A DNA stretch of 51,590 nucleotides, from positions 1 to 51,590 of the IMG/VR virus record IMGVR_UViG_3300036859_000764; one strand, given 5' to 3'. This document shows, piece by piece, positions 1-51,590 of the stretch. The position numbers and the translations under genes are program-made. Under the pieces are notes generated by a model. It had not been told where the DNA came from. It did no database searches and worked only from the letters and a program-made list of their open reading frames with translations. Source of the stretch: a virus. Every line of letters begins with the position of its first letter. Position 1 is the first letter of the stretch.

Positions 1-127
1 GGTAGCCCCACTCGGAGCGCAACACGTCCACCGCCTCCACGATTTTGTGGTCCTGATGCAGCATGCCTCCGGGCCGCGGCCATTCCGGGGTGCCGCTTGG
101 GTGGCCTGATCGAAACGGCGTCGTGGC
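1..127. repeat. Terminal direct repeat, left copy (assembly overlap)
   Basis: The first 127 bases are identical to the last 127 (51464-51590). A length of exactly 127 matches the largest k-mer of common short-read assemblers. I infer that the contig is a closed circle of about 51,463 bp, not a phage with biological 127-bp terminal repeats. A tail gene reads through it without interruption. Confidence 0.95.
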
Positions 128-331
128 CAGCCACCACTCCACCGTCTCGATCGCGTCGCCGTCGTCTTCCGCCAGGATTCGAGATGGACAAACCGTGACC
201 TCTATGCGGGGCCGCTTGTCTGGCCCTATTCCTGAGCGATAGACGACTGCGGCCCGGGCGGGATCTCCGTCGCAGTTGAGGGCTCGGTCCCAGCCTCGCG
301 CTCGATGGGCGGCGCAGGAGAGACGCCACCT
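1..331 (-). CDS. Frameshifted extension of tail assembly chaperone (GT-like), part 1
   Basis: A second minus-strand frame, -1 relative to the chaperone at 226-771, is open from about position 490 down through the artificial end to a stop at 51381-51383. From about position 260 downward it reads as real protein, with IEVTVCPSRILAEDDGDAIE, then VEWWLATTPF and HKIVEAVDVLRSEWGYL. It has no ATG or TTG and only a weak internal GTG (140-142) where one would be needed, so it is best explained as the product of a -1 ribosomal frameshift from the upstream gene. That is the arrangement known for lambda G/GT and most siphoviruses just before the tape measure gene, and the tape measure gene is indeed next. 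The exact slip point is uncertain. A fusion of about 284 residues would result if it is at 331-337. Confidence 0.7.
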
Positions 332-771
332 TCCCCCGTCACCAGACGCAGCGACGTGGAGCGCGAGGCGGAGGCGTTTCCCTCTGCCCGCGTCAGCTTC
401 GACTTGTCGAACAGCTTCATCAGGAGCCAGAAGAGCAGCGCGTCGTCGGCCTCCTCCAAGAGGGCTGGCCCCGTGGTGACCAACTCGCCATCAATCTCGA
501 GGTCCTCGACGTCCTTCACGCAGGACGAGAAAAAGGCCTTGAGCTGGTCCTCGGGGATCACCTCGTAGGCCTGCGTCATGATGGCGGCCTTCTGCGTGGG
601 GGTGAGCGTGTCCCCGCGCGCCTTCTCGAACTCGGAGAAGACGGCGATCAGGACCTTGGCCAGCGGCTTCGCCTCTGCTCGCTTCAGCCGTTTCAGCTTC
701 ATGTGGATGGTCACGCCGGGCCCGGCCTCGTAGGGTTCGCGTTCCCAGCGTTTCAGACTCAGGATCGCCAT
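226..771 (-). CDS. Tail assembly chaperone (G-like)
   Basis: This 181-aa protein starts MAILSLKRWEREPYEAG. I chose the ATG at 771 because GGAGAAAGG lies just upstream, rather than an ORF start 21 codons earlier. It has no signal peptide or membrane segment. The body is acidic and helical (residues 30-120), and the last 35 residues are a low-complexity Pro/Ser/Glu tail. No family motif is recognised. The call rests on position (after the major tail gene, before the tape measure gene), size, and the overlapping -1 frame downstream. Chaperones of this type bind the tape measure protein and recruit tail tube subunits. A plus-strand gene (966-1385) separates it from the preceding tail gene. Confidence 0.65.
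   Translation of the reverse strand: MAILSLKRWEREPYEAGPGVTIHMKLKRLKRAEAKPLAKVLIAVFSEFEKARGDTLTPTQKAAIMTQAYEVIPEDQLKAFFSSCVKDVEDLEIDGELVTTGPALLEEADDALLFWLLMKLFDKSKLTRAEGNASASRSTSLRLVTGEGGVSPAPPIEREAGTEPSTATEIPPGPQSSIAQE
331..337 (-). other. Candidate -1 slippery heptamer G GGG GAA
   Basis: Read on the minus strand in the frame of the 226-771 gene, codons 146-147 are GGG GAA preceded by G. A -1 slip re-pairs GGG perfectly and puts GAA on GGA, with one G-U mismatch at the middle position. It lies within the stretch where both frames are open (226-490). No better heptamer was seen between here and the zero-frame stop. It is a candidate only. Confidence 0.35.
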
Positions 772-2048: not shown

Positions 2049-3242
2049 TTACAAGAAGCCCAAGGAAATTTCTGAGCCGGGAACCGTGAGCGCGTACGCG
2101 CGCCCGCTCATCTGAACCGAGACCTCGCCGTCCTGGTCTCCAGTCGGAACGGCCGGGATGAACTTCGGCGTCCGCCACGCGACGATCTTCCCGGGGAGTA
2201 CCCCGTTCTGGACGATCACGTCATACGCCGTCAGCGCGAACTGGGCATCGAAATAACCTTCCACTGTCCCCGACAGCAACAGCATGTCGAGGTTCTGCGT
2301 CACGACGATGTTGCTACCGTTCCCGGTGCGCTTGAGACCAGACGGCAGAAGCGAGCACGACTCGTTCTGGCGCAGCTCGGCCGCGTTGTCGCTCTGGAAC
2401 CCGGCCTTGACCAAACAGAGCACACCCGACGCCCCGATAAAGACCTTGGCCGCGCTGGGCAGGAGGGGCTCACCGGCCGTCACGGCCGTTGGGCGAGAGA
2501 CAGCGTGCGTTTCGATCCCCTTGCCCTCACCGGAGTATGCCCCCTCAAGAACTGGCGTGTCTGAAGAGAAGTCGGCGGAAATGTCCAGAGACTTGACACT
2601 GTTCCCGCCCGTCTTGTGGCGGAAATTGTTCCCCTCGACATAGCCCCATAGGTGGATGCTCTTGAGGGCCGGCAGCGGCGTACCGAATCGGTAAGTGGTA
2701 CCGAGGTAGACGTTGCGGCCGGACGCAGGAGCGGCCGAGAGCGCCCGATCAACGGTGATCGTGTCGGTGGCTACGATCGTAACCTGTCGCACTTCTACCC
2801 CGAAGGTGGCGTCCACATCGACGGCGATGAGATCGCCTACCGCGACACCGCTCGCCGCGCCACCGCCGGCCGTGAACACGAGAACAGTTGACGTGGACCC
2901 AGAGGTAAGCGTGGTGTTGGCCGTGGCCTTGTGCTTCGTCCCGAAGTGCGCCTCATAGAACACGTCCATATCCGGCTCGGTGGGCGTCGCAGCGTTGCCG
3001 CTCGGGATGACGTCGCTCGCGATCTGCCAGGTGGAATGCTCTTTGCCCTTCTGGGTGGAGAGGACGGAAGCTTCGTTGCCCTGGTCCTTGTCGCGATCGT
3101 AGCGAGCGATGACTGGCGTCCAAGGATTCCCGGCTCTTGCCTTGAAGGCATCGCCACCGACGAGCGCGCCGGGGGAGTTGCCGAAGACGCTTTCGAGCTG
3201 GACGAACAGCTCCCATTGCCGCGAACTGAAGGGCCCTGCCAT
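2049..3242 (-). CDS. Major tail (tube) protein
   Basis: This 397-aa protein starts MAGPFSSRQWELFVQLESVFG. It is long for a tail tube subunit but typical of those with added Ig-like or beta insertions. It alternates beta-rich segments with turns, including a Thr/Ser-rich stretch at about residues 105-130 (TLTSGSTSTVLVFTAGGG) and motifs such as FRHKTGGNSVKSLDISADF in the core. GGGAGAAG precedes the ATG, which follows the upstream stop directly. Neighbours are head-tail connector genes upstream and chaperone genes downstream, the standard siphovirus order. Subunits of this class stack as rings to form the tail tube. Confidence 0.8.
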   Translation of the reverse strand: MAGPFSSRQWELFVQLESVFGNSPGALVGGDAFKARAGNPWTPVIARYDRDKDQGNEASVLSTQKGKEHSTWQIASDVIPSGNAATPTEPDMDVFYEAHFGTKHKATANTTLTSGSTSTVLVFTAGGGAASGVAVGDLIAVDVDATFGVEVRQVTIVATDTITVDRALSAAPASGRNVYLGTTYRFGTPLPALKSIHLWGYVEGNNFRHKTGGNSVKSLDISADFSSDTPVLEGAYSGEGKGIETHAVSRPTAVTAGEPLLPSAAKVFIGASGVLCLVKAGFQSDNAAELRQNESCSLLPSGLKRTGNGSNIVVTQNLDMLLLSGTVEGYFDAQFALTAYDVIVQNGVLPGKIVAWRTPKFIPAVPTGDQDGEVSVQMSGRAYALTVPGSEISLGFL

Positions 3243-4486: not shown

Positions 4487-5223
4487 CAGTGCGTCCTCGA
4501 GCCGTGGGTGAAGTAGTCGATCATCCCGCGGTGCCCGAAGCCGGGACGGTCGACGTCGCTCATGGAGACCGCGGCCGCGCCTGCGCTCCCGGTCTGCATC
4601 TTGGCGTCCCAGAAACTACGGTAGCGGGCCGCCATCGACCGGTAGGTGTCCGACTTCGTGCGCCGGTCCACCGCGTCGGCCGAGATCGAGGAGTCGACGT
4701 CCTTGGCGTAGAGCGCCGCCAGCATGTCGCAGCAGTTCGCCGCCGCGAGGTCCTTGAAGGCCTCCTCGTCGGCGACCGGGATCGTGCACGTGGTCGAGTT
4801 GACCGTGTGCTGGGCCGTGAACGTGACCAGGAAGAACTCGCTCGCTAGCGGCTGGTGGACCAGGAACCGGAGGAAGAGACCGAGGTCCGTGCGATAGAGG
4901 GCGTACCACTCCGAGGGCAGCGGCGCGGGGACCTGGTCCGTGAGGAGGAACGGATACTGGACCGCGAGGATCGAGGACCCGCCGTCCACGAACCCGGTGA
5001 GGGCCGTGATCGCATAGTCGAAGCCATTGTTCCCGGCGATCTTGAGCGTGACCTCGCGCGGGCGGAGCTTCTCGTATTGCTCTTTCGCGGAAAGGATGGC
5101 TCGGTCGACGTCGCACGTGAGGTCGGGCGCGATCGTCAGCGCGTTGTTGATGTCCTGGATCCGGCCGTGCTTGCCGTCGGTCCCGATGATCCCGGCCCGG
5201 ATCTCGCCGATGTTGGCTGCCAT
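4486..5223 (-). CDS. Probable head-tail connector (neck) protein
   Basis: This 245-aa protein starts MAANIGEIRAGIIGTDGK. It is mixed alpha/beta with several conserved-looking hydrophobic patches (FDYAITALTGFVDGGSS, EWYALYRTDLGLFLRFLV) and a Cys pair in the C-terminal half. It lies between capsid-associated genes and the gp10-like gene and overlaps the latter as ATGA. No named domain is recognised; the neck or connector role is inferred from gene order alone. Confidence 0.55.
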   Translation of the reverse strand: MAANIGEIRAGIIGTDGKHGRIQDINNALTIAPDLTCDVDRAILSAKEQYEKLRPREVTLKIAGNNGFDYAITALTGFVDGGSSILAVQYPFLLTDQVPAPLPSEWYALYRTDLGLFLRFLVHQPLASEFFLVTFTAQHTVNSTTCTIPVADEEAFKDLAAANCCDMLAALYAKDVDSSISADAVDRRTKSDTYRSMAARYRSFWDAKMQTGSAGAAAVSMSDVDRPGFGHRGMIDYFTHGSRTH

Positions 5224-5979: not shown

Positions 5980-8385
5980 CTAGGCGACTCCGATGCCGCC
6001 CTGGAAGCCGCGCCAGTCCACGACCTTGCCGCCGTACTCGTGGCGGACCTTCCAGGAGAGCTTGTCGGCCGAGAAGACGCTGCCGACGTTCTCCTGGTCC
6101 TGGGTGAAGAGTGCCGGCTCCTCCTGCCCGTCGACGAAGCCCATCTCGATCGTGTTGACGATGGTCGGGTCGGCCAGGATGTAGTAGTCGCTCGGGTCGG
6201 TGACGTGCTCCAGCACGATCAGCTCGTTCAGCCCGTACCGCTGCGGGATGATGGCTGGCTCGGTCGCGTTCTGGCCCGAGACGGGCGCGACCGGGATCGA
6301 GGTCAACCGCCAGCCGATCTCCTCGAGCTCGGGCGGGACGATCAGGATCTTCGGCGACAGTCCGAGCGGCGTGTTCACGTCCCGGTCGAGCACGCGCAGG
6401 AGACGCTGGCGGGCGATGCCGACCGTCGTGGTGGAGAGGACCGCGGTCTGGATGTTGCCGGCCGAGGAGAAGCCGCGGGTGATCGCCGCCGCGAAGACCG
6501 CGACGCCGTCGTCCAGCGTGGGGTTGGTGATGAACAGGTTGAACACGAACTTGTGGAGCGTGCGCGCCGCGGCGAGAGCCAGGCGCTTCGGCAACTCCTG
6601 CGTCAGGCCCACGTCGTCGTTCTTGATCGCTTCGCGGCTGATCTCCACGATCCCGCCGCGCTTCGAGGGCGCGTAGGTGACCTTCTCGTCCGTCGGGTTG
6701 GAGAGGAGCGGGTAGGGCTGGAGCTGGGCGACCGTCCCCAGGTCCGCGAACGAACCCCAGCGCAGCCGCTCCTGGGTCCGGAAGTCCGACAGCGACGTGA
6801 TGCGCGAGCAGATCCGACGCCACCGCTGCGAGAAGTCGGTGGCCCGGTACTCGGCCAGCATCCGGCGCGTGATCGAGTCGCCCAGGAGGTTCGCGAACGT
6901 GGTCGTCTGGATGGCCTCCAGGATCCGCTGGAACCGGCGCTTCGCCGCGGCGTTGGGGATGTAGCCGGTGACGTCGCGGTCCCCGGTCACGTCCTCATAG
7001 AGCCGCTTGATCGAACGGAAGCCGTCGCGGGGGGCGTCGTGGCCGGTCAGCTTCCTGTACTCGGCCCTGACCTCCTCGGAGGCGCCGCGCATGAAGTAGC
7101 CGTCGACGGCCTCGAGGATCTTGTCGGCCTCGTCCGGGCCGGCCTCGATGGTGGTGCCGAGCCCGGAGCCGATCCGCTGGGCCCCGGCGCTGATCTTGGC
7201 GTCCATCTTCACGGTGCGCTCGACCTCGGCGGAGATGTCCGCGTCGCTCGCGCCCAGGCGCGAGTAGAGGCTCTCGCGCAGGGTCTCGAGGACGCTCGGT
7301 CGCATCGTGCGGTTCTTCAGGAATCGCTCGACCTTGGCCTCGTGGAGCGTGCGCCGGTCGCTCTCGCTCATGGTCGCGGCAGCGGCTGCGGGCTGCGCCT
7401 GGCTGTTGACCATCGCGCGGAGGGCGATCTCGGCGATTGAAGCGTTCGCCGCCGGCGTCGGGGCCGGCGTGGGCGTCGGTGCCGGTGCCGGCTGCATCGC
7501 CTCGAGCAACAGCGCGTCGACCTCGGCCTCGGTCGGCTCGGCTCCGAGCTTGGCGAACAGGTCGGGCCGTGCTTCCTTCAGCTTCGCGATCTTCTTGTCC
7601 AGCATGACGAGGTCCTCCCCGGTCTCGGAGACCGGTGACTTGAGCCCGGCCACGAGCCGCATGACGCGGCCGCCAGCCGAAGGGAACGGCACGACGTCCA
7701 CCGACTCGACGGCCTGGATCTTCTTGACCTTCTTCGCGGCTCCGTCGGCCAGGCGCACGAGGTCGTATTCGCAGGCGGCGCAGTGCGACAGACCGAGCAG
7801 GTCGGGCTTGCCGGCGTCGAACGCCTCGATGAGCTGCTCGCGGAGCTGGGCAGAGGTCACGACCATCGTGGCCAGGACCATCGCCCGCGGCGTTCCCTTG
7901 GCTCCCTCCGGGGTGAGGGTCCCGAAGCGCGCGGCCTCGAGCTGGCCGGCCACATCGCGCGGGTCGCGCATGGACGTCTTCGAGTGGTTGTAGAAGACCT
8001 TCGCGCCCTCATACAGCGGCACGGCCTCGCGCAGGACGTCGGCGGAGTAGAAGGTCCGGTTCTTCGACATCCCCTCGGCGATGGCGCAGACGAGCCACTT
8101 CGCGCCGGGCTTCCCGGAGGCCTCCTCGACGACCGGTCCGAGGATCTGCCCGTGGGCGTTCTCGCGCGAGAGGGCCAGCAGCGGACCGGTCACTTGCTTC
8201 GGCTCGCCGAGCTGGATCTCGTCGCCGACCGTCTTGAGCGGGTAACTTTCCAGCAGCTCGCCGCGCTGGACGATGGCCTCGGTGTCGAAGGCGGCGCGGA
8301 GGCGCCAGCGGGTGTCGCTGCCGATGCCGGCGGAACCGAGCCGGCCACGAAGGAGGGCGTCGACCGCCTCGAGGAGCTTCTTCAC
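5980..8385 (-). CDS. Fused prohead protease and Mu gpT-like major capsid protein
   Basis: This single 801-aa reading frame carries two functions usually split between genes. Residues 1-260 look like a caudoviral prohead protease, with candidate catalytic His134 (FYNHSKTSMRDPRDVAG) and Ser200 (LLGLSHCAACEYD). Residues 260-400 are a scaffold-like helical stretch with a Pro/Ala/Thr linker near 300-316. Residues 400-801 resemble Mu gpT-type major capsid proteins (FSQRWRRICSRITSLSDFRT, then YAPSKRGGIVEISREAIKND). The start is a GTG with no clear Shine-Dalgarno. The frame stays open upstream into 8386-8477 without another start codon, so the exact N-terminus is uncertain. Self-cleavage after assembly is the expected maturation route. 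Confidence 0.8.
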   Translation of the reverse strand: MKKLLEAVDALLRGRLGSAGIGSDTRWRLRAAFDTEAIVQRGELLESYPLKTVGDEIQLGEPKQVTGPLLALSRENAHGQILGPVVEEASGKPGAKWLVCAIAEGMSKNRTFYSADVLREAVPLYEGAKVFYNHSKTSMRDPRDVAGQLEAARFGTLTPEGAKGTPRAMVLATMVVTSAQLREQLIEAFDAGKPDLLGLSHCAACEYDLVRLADGAAKKVKKIQAVESVDVVPFPSAGGRVMRLVAGLKSPVSETGEDLVMLDKKIAKLKEARPDLFAKLGAEPTEAEVDALLLEAMQPAPAPTPTPAPTPAANASIAEIALRAMVNSQAQPAAAAATMSESDRRTLHEAKVERFLKNRTMRPSVLETLRESLYSRLGASDADISAEVERTVKMDAKISAGAQRIGSGLGTTIEAGPDEADKILEAVDGYFMRGASEEVRAEYRKLTGHDAPRDGFRSIKRLYEDVTGDRDVTGYIPNAAAKRRFQRILEAIQTTTFANLLGDSITRRMLAEYRATDFSQRWRRICSRITSLSDFRTQERLRWGSFADLGTVAQLQPYPLLSNPTDEKVTYAPSKRGGIVEISREAIKNDDVGLTQELPKRLALAAARTLHKFVFNLFITNPTLDDGVAVFAAAITRGFSSAGNIQTAVLSTTTVGIARQRLLRVLDRDVNTPLGLSPKILIVPPELEEIGWRLTSIPVAPVSGQNATEPAIIPQRYGLNELIVLEHVTDPSDYYILADPTIVNTIEMGFVDGQEEPALFTQDQENVGSVFSADKLSWKVRHEYGGKVVDWRGFQGGIGVA

Positions 8386-31518: not shown

Positions 31519-31829
31519 CAGCGCACCTTCCTGTACGGATCGTCGCTGTCCCCAACCTCTGGTCGGAAGCGGAATCCTCGCGAGAGGTTCTTCAGCAAGA
31601 CGCCGATGTCGGCCCCTGGCGAAATGAGGGCCTTGACTTCCGCGTCAGTCGCGTAGCCGATGACGACGTCGTGCAGCAGGCGAGCCTTCGCGATCTCGGA
31701 CGATGCTGCGATCTTGGTGACGACTACTTCGGCCGGGTCGTAAGCCTTCATCCGATCTAGGTTGTCCTCCTGCAAGATGACGAAGATGCTGTATTCGGTG
31801 GCGGAGATGGTGAATGGGATCACGAGCAT
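31518..31829 (-). CDS. Hypothetical protein after SbcC-like gene
   Basis: This 103-aa protein starts MLVIPFTISATEYSIFVILQ. A beta-rich N-terminus leads to helices (EVVVTKIAASSEIAKARLLH, then YATDAEVKALISPGADIGVL). It overlaps the SbcC-like stop as ATGA, so it is translated with the recombination genes. No family recognised. Confidence 0.6.
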   Translation of the reverse strand: MLVIPFTISATEYSIFVILQEDNLDRMKAYDPAEVVVTKIAASSEIAKARLLHDVVIGYATDAEVKALISPGADIGVLLKNLSRGFRFRPEVGDSDDPYRKVR

Positions 31830-34309
31830 CACGCGGCCTCCGGAGTGATGCGCCCGTCCGCCACCATCAGACGCACGTCCGCGCGCTCCCAGACCTCCGG
31901 TGAGTGCGCCACGAAGAGGCACTGCTCGAAGCCCCCGAGATCCATCGCCCGGCGCAGCATCTCGATGTAGTGCTGGGCGTTCTCGGGGTCGAGGGCGCCG
32001 GCGGTCTCGTCACGCCAGAGGGTTCGGTACTGGATGCTGTTCTTGCGTGCATTGAAAATGCTGAGACCCAGGCCGATGGCCTCGGCCACGATGACGCCCT
32101 CGCCACCGGACAGGCCCTCGATCTTCTGGTGGGCGATCCCGCGGTCGGCGTCGTACACCCGGATCTCGAACGTCTCTGCGAACTCCCCCGGCGCCGTCTT
32201 CTTCTCCCGGAGCGTCTCCAGGTGGACGCTGAACCGCGGCCCGTAGCAGGCCGTCAGGAGGTCGTTGCAGAGGCGGGAGACCTCGGGGCCGGCGGCGTCG
32301 ATTTCGAGGGCCTGCACGCCATCCCGGCCGAGGGCGCGCTCGAGGATCGTCCAGTCGGAGAGGTGGAGGGCGGCCTCGTCCAGGCCCTTACGCGCCTCCT
32401 CCAACTCCTTGCCCATGGTGGCGGCGTGCTCGACGGCGGCGGCCAGTTTCCCGCGGTTCTCGTCGGCGGTGCGCAGGCTGGCCTCGGCACTGCTGCGCTG
32501 TCTGGCCCAGTCATTGACCCTGGCGAACTCGATGCCGACGCTCAGTCCGCCGAGGCTCTCGGCCGCCTCGTGCTCCTTCGTCGCGTCCGCGAGCCGCTTC
32601 TGGGACTCCCGTAGGCGCTCCTTGGCGGCCTTCACCTTCTCGTCCGCGTCGAGTAGCGCCTCGGTGAGGTCCTGCTGGATGCTGGCCGTCTCGGCGTCGA
32701 TCTGCTTCCGCAACCCCTCGGCGGCCTGGACGTCCGCCTCGAGCGCGCGGTCGAGGGAGGTCCGCTCGGCGTCGGTCTCCCGCAGTTGCCGCGCCGCGGT
32801 GGCGAGGACTTCGGCCAGAGCCGCGGTCCGCTGCGCCGTGGGGATGCGGAACACGATCTGGCCGAGGCGGGCCGCGGCCTCGTCTTCCTCCGTGTGGATC
32901 CGCGCTACGCGGTCGTCGAGGGCGGCCGCCTTCTGCCGCGCCTCCTCCGTCTGGGCGATGGTGGCGGGGTCGACCCTCACGTCGGCGATCGCCAGCTTCG
33001 CGTCCCGGGCGCCCTTCAGGAGAGGGCATCTCGCCGACAGGTCAACGTTGATCTTGTGTGGTATGCCCGCGGAGGATCCGGCACCTGTCCACGTCAATGA
33101 CTCCGAGCACGGGGCTTGGTCGATGAGCCCGGCCTGCTTCCGCAGTTCCCGGATCCGCGCGAGGGCCGCGTTCTCCGCGTCTTCGAGGCGCCGCTCCGCC
33201 CCGGCGAGTTCCGCCGCCGCCACGTCCTTCTGCTGGTGGAGGGCGGTGTACCCCTGGATCCTGGCCTTGACGCTGGCCTCCTCGGCGCGGAGGTCGGTGA
33301 TCTCCTGCTCGGCGGCCTGGACCGCGGGGGCCTCGTCCATCGTCTTTCTCAGGTCGTCGACGCGCTTCGAGAGGGCCTTCGCCGCCTCGTCGTGGCGCTC
33401 CTGTGCCCGCTGCCGCATCACGTCGGGGTCCCGGCTCCCGATGGCCTGCCGGCGCTTCAGGGCGGTACCTTGGGCCACCGCGCCCAGGGACTCCGCGGCG
33501 CTCAGGGCGTCCCGGGCTGCGGCGTACTCGCGCGTGGCGGACTGGCGGGCCATCTCGAGCCGCACAAGCCGCTCCTGGGCGCCCTTGGCGCGCTCCAGTG
33601 CCGAGATGGCTGCGGCCTCTTCCTCACGGGCGGTCTGGAGGGCGCCGGCCGCCTTCTCGGCATCCTCCCGAGCGCGCTCGAGCTCGGCGGTCAGGGCCGG
33701 GAGTTGCCCCACCTCCTCCTCCCGGATAGACACCTCGCGGCGCAGGGCGGCCAGGGCGGTCTCAATCTTCTGGCGCCGCTCCTTCGCCCGGCCGGCCAGC
33801 GCTTCGAGGTGGCCGAGGCCCAGGAGTTCCGCGAACAGCTTCTTCCGCTCGGACGGCTTCGCCCCGATGAGGCTGCCAACTTTCGACTGAGCCGAAAAGA
33901 CGCTCGCGAGGAAGAGGTCCTCCGTGCCGAACAGCCGCCGAATCTCCTTCTCGTAGTCGTCCGCCTTCCCGTTGGTGACCGGCTCCCCGTTCCGGAACAC
34001 GTACCCTTCGGTCTTCTCGCGCGCGGCGTCCACCTGCAGGCGGACCTTCAGGAAGTCGGGGGGCGAGCCGCCGTCCACGAAGTCCGCCTCGATGAACGAG
34101 TCCCCGTGCGTCCAGTTGTAGAGGGACCCCGGGCGGGTCGGGAACGCCTTGTAGAGGAGTGCGGGGGTCGCTTCCAAGGCGGTGCTCTTGCCCGCGCCGT
34201 TGCGCCCCACGAGCGCGATGAGCCCCGGGCCGAGTTGGTCGAAGTCGATGCGGACCGGCTCCCCGTTGAAGCGCGTGAGCCCGGCGAACGCCAGCTTGCG
34301 GAGCCTCAC
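31829..34309 (-). CDS. SbcC/Rad50-like SMC ATPase subunit
   Basis: This 826-aa protein starts at a GTG overlapping the upstream stop (RLRKLAFAGLTRFNGEPVRI). It has the ABC/SMC layout: Walker A GRNGAGKS at residues 35-42, long paired coiled coils, an ABC signature LSGGEGVIVAEAIGLG and Walker B in TLWRDETAGALDPEN near the C-terminus. Two Cys in the hinge region are about 26 residues apart (APCSESL and SARCPLL) instead of a tight CxxC zinc hook, so the hook may be altered. With the SbcD-like gene it likely forms a nuclease that opens DNA ends for recombination. Confidence 0.85.
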   Translation of the reverse strand: MRLRKLAFAGLTRFNGEPVRIDFDQLGPGLIALVGRNGAGKSTALEATPALLYKAFPTRPGSLYNWTHGDSFIEADFVDGGSPPDFLKVRLQVDAAREKTEGYVFRNGEPVTNGKADDYEKEIRRLFGTEDLFLASVFSAQSKVGSLIGAKPSERKKLFAELLGLGHLEALAGRAKERRQKIETALAALRREVSIREEEVGQLPALTAELERAREDAEKAAGALQTAREEEAAAISALERAKGAQERLVRLEMARQSATREYAAARDALSAAESLGAVAQGTALKRRQAIGSRDPDVMRQRAQERHDEAAKALSKRVDDLRKTMDEAPAVQAAEQEITDLRAEEASVKARIQGYTALHQQKDVAAAELAGAERRLEDAENAALARIRELRKQAGLIDQAPCSESLTWTGAGSSAGIPHKINVDLSARCPLLKGARDAKLAIADVRVDPATIAQTEEARQKAAALDDRVARIHTEEDEAAARLGQIVFRIPTAQRTAALAEVLATAARQLRETDAERTSLDRALEADVQAAEGLRKQIDAETASIQQDLTEALLDADEKVKAAKERLRESQKRLADATKEHEAAESLGGLSVGIEFARVNDWARQRSSAEASLRTADENRGKLAAAVEHAATMGKELEEARKGLDEAALHLSDWTILERALGRDGVQALEIDAAGPEVSRLCNDLLTACYGPRFSVHLETLREKKTAPGEFAETFEIRVYDADRGIAHQKIEGLSGGEGVIVAEAIGLGLSIFNARKNSIQYRTLWRDETAGALDPENAQHYIEMLRRAMDLGGFEQCLFVAHSPEVWERADVRLMVADGRITPEAA

Positions 34310-34557
34310 GACCGGTTCTCGGTGAGCGGGATGCTGTGGCGGATCATGGGCGCGACGTGCGTGGGCGCCTCGGACTGGTACGTTCGGTAGCGCTCCTCGT
34401 GCCCTGATGCATCGCAGTCCGTGCGGCGGCACCGCACTGCTTCGAGCGTGCGCACCTCGTAGAGCCCAGGCTTGACCATCCGGTACTCGTGAGCCTGAGG
34501 CTCGTCCACCATGACGGCCCACGAGTGGAGACCGATGACACAGAGGGGGTTACGCAC
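34306..34557 (-). CDS. DUF1660-like small protein
   Basis: This 83-aa protein starts at GTG (MRNPLCVIGLHSWAVMVDEP), eight bases before the end of the SbcD-like gene. Two Cys (RCRRTDCDASG) may bind metal. The opening LCVIGLHSW resembles small phage proteins of the DUF1660 type. Coupled between the SbcC- and SbcD-like genes. Role unknown. Confidence 0.65.
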   Translation of the reverse strand: MRNPLCVIGLHSWAVMVDEPQAHEYRMVKPGLYEVRTLEAVRCRRTDCDASGHEERYRTYQSEAPTHVAPMIRHSIPLTENRS

Positions 34558-35719
34558 CTGACGCCTCCCGCTCGATCTCGTCGAGCTTCTCGTTCAGCCG
34601 CTCCACCGTCGCCGGCGGCAGGACCTCTCCCTTCGCCTCGAAGTACGAGGCGACCTTCTCCTGCGTGGTGCGGGCCTCGGCGATGCTCGCGCTTCGGACG
34701 TGCGCCTGGTGCTCGACGACGACCTCGAGCTTCACGTCGGCGGCGCCCGCCTCTTCCAGCAGTTTCCGGAGCGCGCCCTCGTCGATGCTCCCGAGGTCCT
34801 GCGATCGGACCTTGTAGCGGAGACGGACGAGGGCCCCCGCGAGGCTCAGCGCGCTCGTGTCAGTACCGAGCACGTCGGCCGTGTCGCCGGTGGTGAAGTC
34901 AGCTTCGAGGAGAACGATCGCGCGCGCGGGCAACTCGCGGAACTCGTTGCTCACGAACTTGCCCGCATCATCGAAGGTGACGAGCCGCCATCCCTTCTGC
35001 TCGGGCTCTCCGAAGTTGTGGCGGATCGGGCTCCCGGAGTAGGCCACGCGCCCGTCCATCCACTCCTGCGTCTTGTGGACGTGACCCAGAGCAGCGTACT
35101 CGGCACCGATCTCCTGAATGGCGTAGGGCGAGAGTTCCACCGTCGTTCCCTGGATCACCTGGCCCGTGCTCATGACGGAACCCTGGACCATCGCGTGGGA
35201 GACGAAGATGGGGATGAGCCCTGCGTTGCGGACGCTGGCGGCCTCGGTGCGGAAGCCGATCAGGAGGTCCTCGGCGGTCTCGATCGTGGCCCGGCGCGTC
35301 GTCTCCGTGTCGACCACGGCGTCGAGGCCGGCGACGAGGTGCGCCTTGTCGAACCACGGCAGGGCCAGCATGGCGAACGGGCCCATCCGCGTTGACGTGC
35401 CGGGCCGGGTGGGCCGGTCCACGATCACGATGGGCGAGTCCGTCTGCAGCATGTTGAAGAGCGAGAGGTCGCCCGCGATGTCGTGGTTGCCCTTCACGCC
35501 AAACACGGGGGCGATGTCTGATGCGCTCATGAGGAAGCTGGCCAGGGCGATGCGGTCCGCCGGCGTGGAACGGCGGTCGAAGAAGTCGCCCGCGTGGACG
35601 ATGGCGTTGACCTTCTCATCGGCGGCCTGCTCGATGAAGGCGTCGAGGACGCGGGCGAGGTCCTGCGGCCGGCGCTGGTCGCAGAAATGGGTGTCGGAGA
35701 TGTGGGCGAGGCGGATCAC
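34550..35719 (-). CDS. SbcD/Mre11-like nuclease subunit
   Basis: This 389-aa protein starts at a GTG overlapping the previous stop (MIRLAHISDTHFCDQRRPQD). It carries the metallophosphoesterase motifs in order: D-x-H in HISDTHF, GDFFDR, GVKGNHDI, a His in IFVSHAM and GHVHKT. Its C-terminal half would bind DNA and the SbcC-like partner. It is truncated relative to host SbcD by lack of the long capping domain. Together they make 3' ends or remove hairpins during recombination. Confidence 0.85.
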   Translation of the reverse strand: MIRLAHISDTHFCDQRRPQDLARVLDAFIEQAADEKVNAIVHAGDFFDRRSTPADRIALASFLMSASDIAPVFGVKGNHDIAGDLSLFNMLQTDSPIVIVDRPTRPGTSTRMGPFAMLALPWFDKAHLVAGLDAVVDTETTRRATIETAEDLLIGFRTEAASVRNAGLIPIFVSHAMVQGSVMSTGQVIQGTTVELSPYAIQEIGAEYAALGHVHKTQEWMDGRVAYSGSPIRHNFGEPEQKGWRLVTFDDAGKFVSNEFRELPARAIVLLEADFTTGDTADVLGTDTSALSLAGALVRLRYKVRSQDLGSIDEGALRKLLEEAGAADVKLEVVVEHQAHVRSASIAEARTTQEKVASYFEAKGEVLPPATVERLNEKLDEIEREASGA

Positions 35720-36861
35720 TTGGAGCCGCCCGGGGTTGCCGCCGCCCACTTCGCGCGTACCTCGTCCGCCGTGAGGGTGGGCCAGCGCGGGATGCCGAGG
35801 CTCTTCAGCGTCTTGTGCGCCTCGTAGTCGAACGTGCGGCTCGGATAGCAACTCTCCGGGCACCGGATCACGCCGCCGAGCTTCGCCTTCGACTTCTCGG
35901 CGTCGCCCGGGGTAACCTCACGCTGACAGCCGCAGGCGCAACCGCATACGACGAGGCTCGGCGTGTCGAAGTCGGGCAGTTCCTCGTCGAGCGGGGCACT
36001 AGTCTGTTGAATCTCGGCGTCCTTCTTGGGTGGCTCCGCTGCCTTGGTGGTGGTCGGCGGTGGCGGTGGCGTCTTGTCGCCGTTCGCTTCCGACAGTTCC
36101 GGCACCGTGACCATCGACCGCTCTGCCGGAGGGAGCGCACCGAAGAGGCGACCCTCGTTGGCGAGCGTCTGCTGGATGGCGGCGCGCTTCTGGTCGGGGT
36201 CGCTGATGTCCCACACCTGGACGAGCTTGGGGACGATGAAGGGCTTGCGCTTGAGGTCGCTGACGTTGTAGCTGCCCAGGATCGCGAACAGATTGCGCAC
36301 GGCGGCCTCGATCGCGAGCGTCTGCACCTTGGCGTTGAGGAAGTGCCGGTCGATGGCGAGCCGTGCCGGGCTCATCCCTTTGATCTCGTCGGAGCCCTCG
36401 GACAGGTCGAGGTCGCGGTGTCCCGGGTACTGGCGCATCGCGCCGTCGAAGTCCTGGTGGTACAGGATGGCTTCGTAGTCGCGGTAGTGCGGGCGCGACT
36501 GGTCATCCTGACGGCGCAAAACCGGATTCGCGCCCGCCGCGGCCAGCAGCGCCAGCAGACCGCCCTTGCCCAGGGAGACCACGCCCTTCTTGACGTCGCC
36601 GTGGTACTTCTTGCTGAAGTAGCAGTGCGGGCCGTGGCCGCTGTATTCGTCGACCATCGCAATGGTCGGGTCGATCCAGACCGACCGAAGGCTGATCTGG
36701 TGGAAGGGTTTGACGAAGTCGACGCGCGCCACGGGAGTGAGGACGAAAGCGGCGTCCTCTGTCCGGAGTCGCTCGAGGATTTGCGAGAGCTCGGCCAGGT
36801 CGCCGAGCGGCCGTGCTGGGACGATGTCCCCCGCGGCCTTGACTACGATGGACTGAGACAT
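35716..36861 (-). CDS. Recombination-associated phage protein with zinc motif
   Basis: This 381-aa protein starts MSQSIVVKAAGDIVPARPLG with AGGAGG eight bases upstream. The middle part, with SPARLAIDRHFLNAKVQTLA and AIEAAVRNLFAILGSYNVSD, has the look of RecT/Redbeta-like or DdrB-type single-strand annealing proteins, but no family is certain. The C-terminal region has CGCACGCQREVTPGD and CPESCYPSRTF, a Cys-rich zinc site. Its place before SbcD/SbcC-like genes suggests a recombination pathway. The zinc tail is unusual for a known annealing protein. Confidence 0.55.
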   Translation of the reverse strand: MSQSIVVKAAGDIVPARPLGDLAELSQILERLRTEDAAFVLTPVARVDFVKPFHQISLRSVWIDPTIAMVDEYSGHGPHCYFSKKYHGDVKKGVVSLGKGGLLALLAAAGANPVLRRQDDQSRPHYRDYEAILYHQDFDGAMRQYPGHRDLDLSEGSDEIKGMSPARLAIDRHFLNAKVQTLAIEAAVRNLFAILGSYNVSDLKRKPFIVPKLVQVWDISDPDQKRAAIQQTLANEGRLFGALPPAERSMVTVPELSEANGDKTPPPPPTTTKAAEPPKKDAEIQQTSAPLDEELPDFDTPSLVVCGCACGCQREVTPGDAEKSKAKLGGVIRCPESCYPSRTFDYEAHKTLKSLGIPRWPTLTADEVRAKWAAATPGGSK

Positions 36862-46789: not shown

Positions 46790-48631
46790 CTAGTCGAGTG
46801 CCTCTACGAGCTGCAGCGGGATGTCCCAATAGGGGAACCCTGTGGACATGTTGAAGCGAGCGGGCTCCCGCCGGAACACGAAGTTGATGTCGGTGGGCGC
46901 TCCGGTGGGATCCCAGGCGATGAAGAAATTGGCGCCGGCCTTCATGGACCTGGCGAGCGTTTCGAACAGCACTCGGTCGGCGTCGAGAACTTGGCTCCAC
47001 TCGAGTTGCCAGATCCAGCGCTGCGGGCGTTCGTCGCGGAAGTGGCTCCCGTGCGTCCCGTACGCGATCTCGCTCAGCTCGTCGAGCACCTTGCTGAAAG
47101 CATCGCTGTGACAAAATGCCGGCGCAACGTAGGTACCGAGGTCCCAGATTCCCACCTCGGAATAGCCGGCCTGGTTCGTGGGGTCGTCGATCACCAGCCT
47201 CCACCAGCGCTGCGACGAAGCGCTCCAGTATCCGAGCCTCTTCTCCGCATCCCCGGTGAGGACCTGGGTAAAGGCAGGCGCAATCCAGACATCGGCGGCA
47301 TTGCCCTGAACTTCCAGGACGCCCGCGGAAGCACCCGCGTTGTGATCGAGCGCAACGCCGAATGTCAGCGCCGCCGCCGCCCCCAGATCGACCGTCAGAG
47401 AGTGCGAACCCTGGTACACAGCGTTTTCGGCGAGATAGCTGGAGGCGCCGAGGTGGTCCGACGAAACGGTGAAGCCGAGATCCTTGAAGGCAGCATTGAC
47501 CTTGAGGATCCCCGTTGAGGTGTAGAGCGTGACGTTTCCGGCGCCGGAGGTCCGCGCGAGCGTGAACTGGTGGGTCGCGCCATCGTAGGTTGCGGTGACG
47601 ACGTCGGTCCACGTCGGGGCGGTCGTGGCGTCGTTCGCGGCCAGCGAGGGATAGCGCTGGCGAAGGTAGTAGGTCAGCTTCCGGCGTTGTGCCTCGGTCA
47701 GCGCAGTGGGCCAGACGATGGCCTCGACGATGTATCCCTTGAGTAAGTCTGTGGCGGTGGACCCAAGCCCAAATGGCGCGCCGAGAATGTCCGCATGGAG
47801 CGCTCCGGTCATCGCCGTGTTGGCTGCCGCGGCGTCGTCCGCGTCGTCGGCAAACGCGCTCAGGTTGGTCTGATCGTATCTCCACCAGCCGTGGTGCCAA
47901 TTCGCTACCGCCGCGCCCGGTGTCTTGTTCGCGAGCTTCTGCGATGAGTCGAACGCTTCGGCTCTCAGGTTCGCGGAGCCGGTCCAGTACAGGGCGGCGA
48001 AGTGCCCGCTCGATCCGGCACTGAACAACATGTCGTTGGCCGAAGCATCGGAGTCCAGCCGGAACACGATCACGACTGTCCCGACACCGTTCGCTCCGAG
48101 GAACGCGCTCATGTTCGCTGATGAGGGCAGGTTCTGACTCGCGGTGACGCCATCGAAATACATCCCCGGGCGACCATCGAGCGCGTTCGCCACCCAGAGA
48201 GGACGCAGCCCAGCAGTTGCCTGCGTGCGGTGGCGTCCGTTCCCGCTGAGATCGGTCAGCTGTGAGACCTTTCCATCCGCGTCGAGCACGACCGAATCGG
48301 CGCGCCACCAGCCGGTGGTGTTCAGGGGATTCAGCGGGCTCGCGCCGGCCGCGGCCATCGCCGTGGTGACGGCCGTCGCGTAAGCCGCGCCGGTGGCGTA
48401 GTAGCCGGGGGCGATGTGCGCGACCCGCGGGTTCAAGTCCGAGTTCGTGAGGAAGTGGATCTCGTCGCGGAAGCCGCGGACCACGGTCCAGCCCGTCTTG
48501 CTGCGCCAGACCTTGCTGCGGAGCTGGTCCTTCAGGTTCGCCGCGGGAAAGCCGACCTCTTCGCTGGAGGCTGAGATGATCGTCCCGCCAGCGCGAACGG
48601 AGCTTGGGTAAAGGAATCGCGGGATGGCCAT
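46790..48631 (-). CDS. Distal tail protein with LamG/jelly-roll domain
   Basis: This 613-aa protein starts MAIPRFLYPSSVRAGGTIIS and overlaps the tape measure stop as ATGA. Residues 110-330 form a concanavalin/LamG-like module (GWWRADSVVLDADGKVSQLT, then DGRPGMYFDGVTASQNLPSS, TVVIVFRLDSDASANDMLFS). The flanking N- and C-terminal parts (DELSEIAYGTHGSHFRDERP, ERPQRWIWQLEWSQVLDADR) look like distal tail or minor tail structure. The insertion probably binds a cell-surface polysaccharide. Confidence 0.7.
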   Translation of the reverse strand: MAIPRFLYPSSVRAGGTIISASSEEVGFPAANLKDQLRSKVWRSKTGWTVVRGFRDEIHFLTNSDLNPRVAHIAPGYYATGAAYATAVTTAMAAAGASPLNPLNTTGWWRADSVVLDADGKVSQLTDLSGNGRHRTQATAGLRPLWVANALDGRPGMYFDGVTASQNLPSSANMSAFLGANGVGTVVIVFRLDSDASANDMLFSAGSSGHFAALYWTGSANLRAEAFDSSQKLANKTPGAAVANWHHGWWRYDQTNLSAFADDADDAAAANTAMTGALHADILGAPFGLGSTATDLLKGYIVEAIVWPTALTEAQRRKLTYYLRQRYPSLAANDATTAPTWTDVVTATYDGATHQFTLARTSGAGNVTLYTSTGILKVNAAFKDLGFTVSSDHLGASSYLAENAVYQGSHSLTVDLGAAAALTFGVALDHNAGASAGVLEVQGNAADVWIAPAFTQVLTGDAEKRLGYWSASSQRWWRLVIDDPTNQAGYSEVGIWDLGTYVAPAFCHSDAFSKVLDELSEIAYGTHGSHFRDERPQRWIWQLEWSQVLDADRVLFETLARSMKAGANFFIAWDPTGAPTDINFVFRREPARFNMSTGFPYWDIPLQLVEALD

Positions 48632-51183
48632 CAGCGCCTCACCGATCCCGTCTTGATCGGCAGCCGGCCGGACTCGTTCATTCGAATGATGGCCTCGCCT
48701 ATGGAGCGGCCGTCGAGTAGCACGGTCGCTTGCATCTGGGATCCGCCGCCGGTGCTGGCCATGGCGAGGCCTACCGCCTTTCCGACCGCGGCATCGACGA
48801 TCGCGCCGAGCTGGTCTCCACGGAGGACGTACTCGGGGTTGGCCTGCGTCCCGTGCAGCATGGCCGGGACACCCCACTGCGTGATCTTTCCCCAGCCGGT
48901 GGCGAAGTCTTCGCCGCGTCGGCGACGTCGACCGCCTCCTTCCTGAACGCCCGGCTTGTTCTCGCCACCGCTCAGGATGTCGTCCGGATCGTTCACGTGG
49001 ACGTTCACGTTCACGTCCTTGTCTGGGATCCCCAGCAGCGCGTTCACCAGCCTCTCGATCTCTTTGATCAGCTTGCCGATCCCCTCGGTCAGCGTCTCCG
49101 CGAAGTGCAGCCCCTTGTATTCCTCCTCGGTGAACGCCTCGCCGTTCTCATGGACGAGCTTTCCCTGTTTGTAGAGTTCGTCGATGATCGGCCTCATCGC
49201 CTCCGGGATCGTGGCGCCGGCCTTGATCGCGGTGTTCACGTACTCGTTGATGGTCGGCCCCATGCGCTCGATGATGGCCAGGTGGTCGATGCCGGCGGCG
49301 TTCAGGAGCTGCCAGTCCTCGAAGAGCTGCCCGAACTGCTCGTCGAGCTTCTGCTGCGAGAGCCGCGGGCCCAGTTCGTCGATCGTGAACCCGTACCGCT
49401 CGATGGCTTCGTTGAGCTTCCTCTCCGCCTCGCCCTGGAGATCGAAGGCGGCGGTCAGCTCGTCGATCGCGGCCTGGTAGTCTTTGACGTTTTTCGCGTC
49501 GAGGAGGCGGTCGAGGGTGAGGCCGGCTTTCTGGGCCGCCTTGTCCAGCTCGGTGATCCCGCCCGCGGCGGCTACGAAGTCGTCGCGCAGGTCGTTGACC
49601 TTCTCCCACTCGCTGTCGGTGAACAGGCTCTTGAGGGTGCCGATCACGACTGACAGACCGGAGATGCCGGCGCGAATCATTCCAAAAAGATCCCTCTTCG
49701 CGAAGGCAGACATGAAGTCGCCGGCCGCGTTGGCGATGTTGGAGAAGCCGTCCGCGAGCTTCACGAAGAATGAGTCGGCGTCGCCACCGAGCTGGACGAA
49801 GATGTCGCCGACGGTCGTGAGGGAGGCGCCCAGGTCCTGTAAGCCCCGCGCGATTCTCTCGCGGTGTTCCTCCTGTTCCTTGGCCGTGTCCTCGAGGGCC
49901 TTCTGTCCGGACTTGATTCTCTCCAGCATCTGTTTGGCGCGATCGGACGCGATGCGCTCTTGGTTCTTGAAGAAGTCCTCGAGCGATTTGTCGGCTGCTT
50001 TGGTACTCGCTGCAATCAGCAGGATCAGCTTGGTCTCGTCCTGCGCGGCCTTCTTGGCCTGCTCCGCGATCTTCGCCAGGGCCTTGGCCTCGCTCTCGGC
50101 GTAATTCGTGGCCAACCTGGTGCCTGCGATGAACTCGTCGTGGTCGGCCTTCAGCGCCCTCAATGCGGCCTTGCGATCGATGAGCCCCCTATTCCCGGTG
50201 TCCAGACCGTTCGCAAACTTCTGTAGGTTGCCAGCAGCGACGGCAGCTTGGTCGCTCTGCTCTCTCATCTCGGCGGCCGCGGCGTTCAGGTTCGTAGCGT
50301 AGGACCGCAGGAATTCCGCCTGTTCCCGATACTGCTTCCCGACGATCGGCAGCTTTGCCAGCTGCTCGAAGAGTGCGGCCAAGAGATTTGCAGCCGACGC
50401 CGTGGTCTCGGCGAAGATGGCGCGCGCCTCACCAAGGGCGATCACCATGTCGACACCGAACAGCTTCGCGAGCGCAAACCCGACCTCGACCAATCCGGAG
50501 AAGGGCTTTTCCGCACCGACCACCTGACCGATCAGCTTCCCGAGTCCCTCCTCGGCCTCGTTCATCGCGTTGTGCATCTGCTGGAGAGAGCCTGTGTAGG
50601 TGTTCGTGGCCGCGGCAGCCGAACCACCGAACCGTTTCTCAAGCTGGGCGATAACCGCGTCGAACTTCTGGTGCTTGTCGAGGCTCTGGTCGACGATGAT
50701 CCCGTAGCGGCTCAACGCCGTCGTGTTCCCAGCGTAGGCTTTCCCGAGCAGGTCAATCGCTGATTGCAGGTCGCGTCCGGTGGCCGCGGCGAAGTCCGCC
50801 GCTGCGGCGGTCGTCTTCTTGATCTGCTCCTCGTTCATCCCGAACGAAGCGAGGGTGGCCATCCCAGCAACAACGACCTCGTCGCTGAATGTAGTGGTCT
50901 GCTGTAGCGCCGCGGCGTACTCCTGGAGTCGCTCGCTCGTCCCGCCGACGAGATGGCCCTGGTTCGCCAGCGCCAGGTTGAGCTTGTTGATGGCCGCCTC
51001 CTGCTCGGCCTGGGCCTTCAGCGCATCCGTTACGACGTCGAAGACCTTTGTCGCGACCTCGTAGGCCACCGCCAGAGAGAGGACCTGCGTCTTCGTCTTC
51101 TCGATCGAGTCGGTGACTTGCTTGAAACCGGCGGCGGTCTCATTGCGGGCCCGCAGCAGGATTTCGAGGGCTTGGTCGGCCAT
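48631..51183 (-). CDS. Tape measure protein
   Basis: This 850-aa protein starts MADQALEILLRARNETAAGF with GGGAGC 14 bases upstream. Long helices with heptad-like spacing fill most of its length, with hydrophobic patches in the middle (MIRAGISGLSVVIGTLKSLF) and a basic linker (GGGRRRRRGEDF) near residue 755. The closing region (WGVPAMLHGTQANPEYVLRG) resembles the C-terminal end of other phage tape measure proteins. It sets tail length; 850 aa corresponds to roughly 130 nm by the usual 0.15 nm per residue rule. It follows the frameshifted chaperone. Confidence 0.85.
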   Translation of the reverse strand: MADQALEILLRARNETAAGFKQVTDSIEKTKTQVLSLAVAYEVATKVFDVVTDALKAQAEQEAAINKLNLALANQGHLVGGTSERLQEYAAALQQTTTFSDEVVVAGMATLASFGMNEEQIKKTTAAAADFAAATGRDLQSAIDLLGKAYAGNTTALSRYGIIVDQSLDKHQKFDAVIAQLEKRFGGSAAAATNTYTGSLQQMHNAMNEAEEGLGKLIGQVVGAEKPFSGLVEVGFALAKLFGVDMVIALGEARAIFAETTASAANLLAALFEQLAKLPIVGKQYREQAEFLRSYATNLNAAAAEMREQSDQAAVAAGNLQKFANGLDTGNRGLIDRKAALRALKADHDEFIAGTRLATNYAESEAKALAKIAEQAKKAAQDETKLILLIAASTKAADKSLEDFFKNQERIASDRAKQMLERIKSGQKALEDTAKEQEEHRERIARGLQDLGASLTTVGDIFVQLGGDADSFFVKLADGFSNIANAAGDFMSAFAKRDLFGMIRAGISGLSVVIGTLKSLFTDSEWEKVNDLRDDFVAAAGGITELDKAAQKAGLTLDRLLDAKNVKDYQAAIDELTAAFDLQGEAERKLNEAIERYGFTIDELGPRLSQQKLDEQFGQLFEDWQLLNAAGIDHLAIIERMGPTINEYVNTAIKAGATIPEAMRPIIDELYKQGKLVHENGEAFTEEEYKGLHFAETLTEGIGKLIKEIERLVNALLGIPDKDVNVNVHVNDPDDILSGGENKPGVQEGGGRRRRRGEDFATGWGKITQWGVPAMLHGTQANPEYVLRGDQLGAIVDAAVGKAVGLAMASTGGGSQMQATVLLDGRSIGEAIIRMNESGRLPIKTGSVRR

Positions 51184-51256: not shown

Positions 51257-51454
51257 ATGAGCCTGACCAAGCCGGCCGGATGCGCGCTGCAAGTCCTCGG
51301 ATTGGCGCTCCTCTGTGGGGGCTGCCTCATGGTGAGCAGCGCCCTACATCCAGGCAGCGATTCAAGCTCCATTCCGGGGTTCATCGTCCTGCTGGTCGGC
51401 GCCGCGATGATGGCGTCGGGCGGGATGCGGGCGCGGCAGAAGCCTCCGGCCTGA
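51257..51454 (+). CDS. Two-span membrane protein, plus-strand cargo gene
   Basis: This 65-aa protein starts MSLTKPAGCALQVLGLALLC, with two hydrophobic segments (residues 10-30 and 41-55, IPGFIVLLVGAAMMASGGM). It lies on the opposite strand between the tape measure gene and the chaperone. No ribosome site is visible; a weak TAGACT -10-like element at 51242-51247 would again place the transcript start near the ATG. Its 3' end overlaps the chaperone extension's 3' end antisense. Possible superinfection or lysogenic conversion gene. Confidence 0.5.
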   Translation: MSLTKPAGCALQVLGLALLCGGCLMVSSALHPGSDSSSIPGFIVLLVGAAMMASGGMRARQKPPA

Positions 51455-51463: not shown

Positions 51464-51590
51464 GGTAGCCCCACTCGGAGCGCAACACGTCCACCGCCTC
51501 CACGATTTTGTGGTCCTGATGCAGCATGCCTCCGGGCCGCGGCCATTCCGGGGTGCCGCTTGGGTGGCCTGATCGAAACGGCGTCGTGGC
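51464..51590. repeat. Terminal direct repeat, right copy (assembly overlap)
   Basis: Identical to positions 1-127. Removing this copy closes the circle. On the minus strand it encodes the same part of the chaperone extension as the left copy. Confidence 0.95.

Follow-up and report, generated by a model that had tools for sequence, protein, structure and literature searches.

The G/GT frameshift mechanism has been known since phage lambda, in which the Z base of the slippery heptamer is G. The lambda chaperones are considered here as described in PMC5009743 from the work of Levin et al. (1993) and of Xu, Hendrix and Duda (2004, 2013, 2014): the tape measure protein is bound by gpG and, through its G part, by gpGT, the tail tube subunit is the partner of T, and a gpG:gpGT ratio of about 30:1 (molar) is essential. 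The same source describes G_GGA_AAG as highly shift-prone in E. coli and, citing Sencilo et al. (2013), gives G_GGA_AAC as the g-t frameshift site of the haloarchaeal siphovirus HCTV-1 (PMC5009743).

The window, that is, the whole stretch of 51,590 nucleotides of viral DNA analysed here, very probably carries a tail assembly chaperone gene of the lambda G/GT type, in which the slip would take place on G_GGA_AAC (382-376) and GT extends to 51381. As in lambda, the pair lies upstream of the tape measure gene, consists of two overlapping reading frames, has a -1 heptamer of the GGGAAA type, and its T has no start. Unlike in lambda, the Z base of the heptamer is C in the window and A in most of the relatives, and neither G nor T has a family-level match to Pfam or PHROGs. 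The heptamer of HCTV-1 is identical to that of the window and the gene position is the same.

Because of the position and the architecture of the pair, we infer for it the role that is known from lambda. Translation of G would begin at 771; most ribosomes would stay in the zero frame as far as the TAG at 226, yielding the 181-aa G, and a minority would slip back one base on the heptamer and read the -1 frame to 51381, yielding the 284-aa GT. By analogy with lambda, G may coat the tape measure protein, the scarce GT may recruit the major tail protein through its T part, and the G:GT ratio set by the slip may govern the assembly of the tail.

The two reading frames and their surroundings

The window is a viral entry of IMG/VR; its first 127 bases recur at its end (1-127 are identical to 51464-51590), thus the contig is a circular assembly of 51,463 bp with an arbitrary cut point, and the direct repeat at 51464-51590 is the mark of this circular assembly and not a second copy. 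G, the 181-aa zero-frame product, is encoded at 226-771 on the minus strand and has homologues in the relatives described below. T is read in the -1 frame on the same strand; its first part occupies 1-376, as delimited by alignment A3 and by a nine-sequence alignment, and its last part, across the artificial contig end, 51381-51463, with the stop codon at 51383-51381. T thus comprises 152 aa and the GT fusion 284 aa. The end of G and the beginning of T overlap at 226-375 (minus strand), where frame comparisons indicate dual coding, and the tail of G on the 3' side of the slip site is rich in Ser, Thr and Pro.

The sequence-only reading had described a -1 frame relative to 226-771 whose open stretch starts at 490 and crosses the contig end, but which lacks a usable start at its beginning. 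On the rotated circle this frame indeed runs uninterrupted for 190 codons, from 490 to its stop codon at 51383-51381; it contains the peptides quoted in that reading, and no ATG, GTG or TTG occurs in it before 142. The openness alone is no evidence here, since long stop-free -1 runs are common in this GC-rich genome: in 16 other genes, 16 of 61 such runs reach at least 184 codons.

In the rotated minus-strand order the head genes (terminase, a portal-sized protein, prohead protease/major head protein and small head-tail genes) are followed by 2049-3242, 1461-2039, G, T, the tape measure gene and probable tail-tip genes. The G-T pair sits between the gene of the probable major tail protein (2049-3242, minus strand, 397 aa), which is named by its length and position and is homologous and syntenic in the relatives, and that of the tape measure protein (48631-51183, minus strand), located downstream of T and recognised by its similarity to families and genes of tape measure proteins. 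When the 397-aa product was compared with PHROGs and Pfam, no match was obtained. The same gene position is kept by G/GT in lambda-like phages.

The slip site

The heptamer G_GGA_AAC (376-382, minus strand) is a classical X_XXY_YYZ sequence in the frame of G, its zero-frame codons being GAG GGA AAC, and it stands inside the G/T overlap, ahead of the conserved part of T, which begins directly after 376. Sequences of the type XXX(A/T)3Z that stand in frame are rare, only 4 being present in 7957 codons of 17 genes. From the shift position to the stop of G the distance is 49 codons in the window and 32-54 codons in the relatives. At the homologous position G_GGA_AAA is found in seven contigs and G_ACU_UUU in three. 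In every relative the homology of T starts right after the heptamer, and on its 5' side only G is conserved.

In the 100 nt that precede the slip site, the window and all but one of the eight distinct relatives have no start codon of the T frame. Only L015 has one, a GTG 48 nt ahead of the site, which lacks a Shine-Dalgarno sequence. In L003/L012 and L020/L021 the nearest T-frame starts lie at least 378 nt upstream and would precede the conserved T by more than 100 codons of unconserved sequence. Homologues with a separate standard start for T, named beforehand as evidence against frameshifting, were looked for among the relatives, and what was found there leaves the frameshift standing. Ordinary gene callers miss T because it has no start codon and, in this contig, also because the cut falls inside it.

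Relatives of the G-T pair

L003, the first relative, was reached via the 397-aa tail protein (46% identity). Its G is 28% identical to that of the window over 188 aligned positions, and its -1 frame matches that of the window with 51% identity over 41 aa (E 4e-7), the match beginning at GAG GGA AAC in the window and at GAG GGA AAA in L003. A DNA pattern composed of the heptamer and degenerate codons for the start of T retrieved seven contigs from IMG/VR, all of them encoding a zero-frame G that is followed by T in the -1 frame; as a control, about 85,000 cellular genomes gave eight chance matches, none with G or T. Searching with the T alignment, by patterns within T that make no use of the heptamer, returned the same seven contigs together with L020, L021 and L022. 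The ten contigs represent eight distinct loci, L011/L013 and L021/L022 being near-identical pairs (the latter two are identical at the locus). Their T proteins are 44-57% identical to that of the window over the matched stretches, T being truncated in L003/L012 and L011, where the contig ends, and the order major tail protein, G, T, tape measure protein is kept wherever the contig is long enough. The alignments give the conserved core of T as LxLALHV...C..HR.RGW..ALNC.GDP...CPSR...EWW...GxPxGxPxWPxxGGxxxQ...EW.

Close-relative searches with G alone, or with T counted only from ATA, gave no match. These early searches were empty in part because T had been taken from the wrong start; the pattern built on the corrected junction found the family. 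Among phage records, including isolated phages, and among plasmids, nothing related to T was found. Two further contigs, L004 and L005, are related by the tape measure protein only and have different, unrelated G/GT pairs in the corresponding position (4382-5103 in L004, 4998-5815 in L005); L004 has A_AAA_AAC at 4762, just before the stop of G, and L005 has only GGAAAAA.

Coding evidence for T and alternative readings

In order to judge the similarity of the -1 frames of the window and L003, the amino acids of G were held and synonymous codons were drawn at random 5000 times. The observed similarity score was 88, against -1.7 +/- 15.8 in the null model, and was reached in none of the 5000 draws, nor in any of 5000 when the identical codons were kept fixed. 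Since no random-synonymous draw matched the observed score, chance similarity of the -1 frame can be rejected. The recurrence of a slip site at one aligned position likewise goes beyond chance. In the close pair L017/L009, the part of T beyond the overlap has a dN/dS of 0.28, and the other two frames have 1.6 and 2.7; the counts from close pairs are small, and individual dN/dS values inside the overlap are not to be pressed. In the overlap, taking all pairs, variability is lowest at the third position of the zero frame (the first of T) and highest at the third position of T, a pattern that agrees with the prediction for T coding. Scored for codon usage, the part of T beyond the overlap ranks first among the six frames, yet its value is negative. 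While the frequency of long -1 open runs in this genome (16 of 61 with at least 184 codons) would suit the view that in such GC-rich DNA the frame is open by chance, the conservation of T as a protein among the relatives refutes such a reading, and we give it practically no credence.

An error of sequencing or a pseudogene, with G and T really forming one continuous gene, could be suspected in a single metagenomic contig where T adjoins G. The same frame break, with a slip site, recurs, however, in ten further contigs from other assemblies; the zero frame stays open for about 100-160 nt past the slip and keeps the S.S.STS motif, and no relative with G and T in one frame was seen, so that this explanation is equally close to negligible. 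Only slightly greater probability, and still very little, can be granted to the two readings that place the origin of T elsewhere. The candidate site named earlier for the slip was GGGGGAA (331-337), which offers a run of five G inside the overlap; this sequence is not of the X_XXY_YYZ form, its run is not conserved in the relatives, and it lies downstream of the start of the conserved T (RLRLALHV...), which is in the -1 frame from 376, and a shift there would lose the conserved LxLALHV segment. Separate synthesis of T, by reinitiation or from a rare start, had likewise been suggested, as a remote alternative, for the ATA at 229, which overlaps the stop of G (ATAG), and the GTG at 142 could be considered in the same way. 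The conserved T begins 49 codons upstream of the ATA, so either start would drop at least the first 49 residues of T, including its most conserved segment, and the relatives have no usable T start; reinitiation at ATA was therefore rejected. The part of the sequence-only reading that stands is its principal claim, a G/GT -1 programmed frameshift split by the artificial linearisation, which, judged by sequence comparison, is supported by the presence of G, a slip site and a -1-frame T in ten other contigs.

Protein families and structure models

The G/GT pair is an unannotated protein family that uses an ordinary, known mechanism. T is without a match in the PDB as well, and its structure prediction (pLDDT 49) was too poor for use. 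The AlphaFold model of G has a pLDDT of 66 and is usable only to about residue 130. Compared with BFVD, this model retrieved several phage proteins named tail assembly chaperone with modest scores, the best at rank 2 (E 3.4e-3), while the Foldseek comparison with the PDB gave nothing significant. The HK97 tail assembly chaperone (2ob9) could be superposed on the G model with a Z of 3.4 and an rmsd of 4.5 over 83 residues at 11% identity, a Z too low for the claim of a shared fold. The resemblance of the modelled G to known tail assembly chaperones is thus suggestive only. For annotators the T family is a hidden family of tail genes, and the G/GT pair anchors the tail module of a group of uncultured long-tailed phages.

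RNA signals and a possible exchange of the slip site

A candidate 3' stimulatory stem can be drawn at 289-373 (minus strand), starting 6 nt after the heptamer with 11 perfect pairs (369-359/303-293). Its z is -2.6 and 2 of 200 shuffled sequences fold as well; it is significantly stable in the window only and poorly conserved, and a conserved 3' RNA structure sought in the relatives was not convincingly found. The sequence at 373-353 (minus strand; columns 12-32 of alignment A5), 21 nt on the 3' side of the slip site, is nearly invariant (CTCC..CTCGC.CTCCACGTC), even at the third codon positions of T. Five T codons (CTC, CTC, CTC, CAC and GTC) are identical in all seven lineages tested, which exceeds the prediction from codon usage, although the p value, which presupposes a star phylogeny, is too optimistic. 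This invariance can be read in two ways: either the G tail has to keep S.S.STS, or the RNA itself matters.

In a sister group, comprising L020 (1039-1045), L021 and L022 (3492-3498), GACTTTT replaces GGGAAAA at the aligned slip position and T is still in the -1 frame. G_ACU_UUU leaves only the tetramer U_UUU to slip on, which satisfies Z_ZZN, the minimum tetranucleotide for nearly all -1 shifts (PMC5009743). We therefore put forward, quite tentatively and as the less probable case, that the slip site has been exchanged within one G/GT family, the site being G_GGA_AAA/C in most members and G_ACU_UUU in L020, L021 and L022. It is the only aspect of the locus that goes beyond routine. The cassette would perhaps have survived such a change through the 3' stretch acting as an RNA stimulator, or through the need of both frames. 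If true, the exchange would be a natural experiment in which one frameshift cassette outlived its changed slippery sequence, and the pair would add a recorded change of slip site.

Other genes of the window

Two open reading frames lie on the opposite (plus) strand among the tail genes. The one at 966-1385 (139 aa) is moron-like, with no Pfam match and no homologue in the related loci; the other, at 51257-51454, lies between T and the tape measure gene, encodes 65 aa with two hydrophobic stretches, overlaps the 3' end of T and was not found in the relatives. Among the head genes, the single reading frame at 5980-8385 (minus strand) matches families of head maturation proteases as well as of major head proteins, and its product is probably a protease-capsid fusion. 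At 31829-35749 (minus strand) an SbcC-like ATPase adjoins an SbcD-like phosphoesterase.
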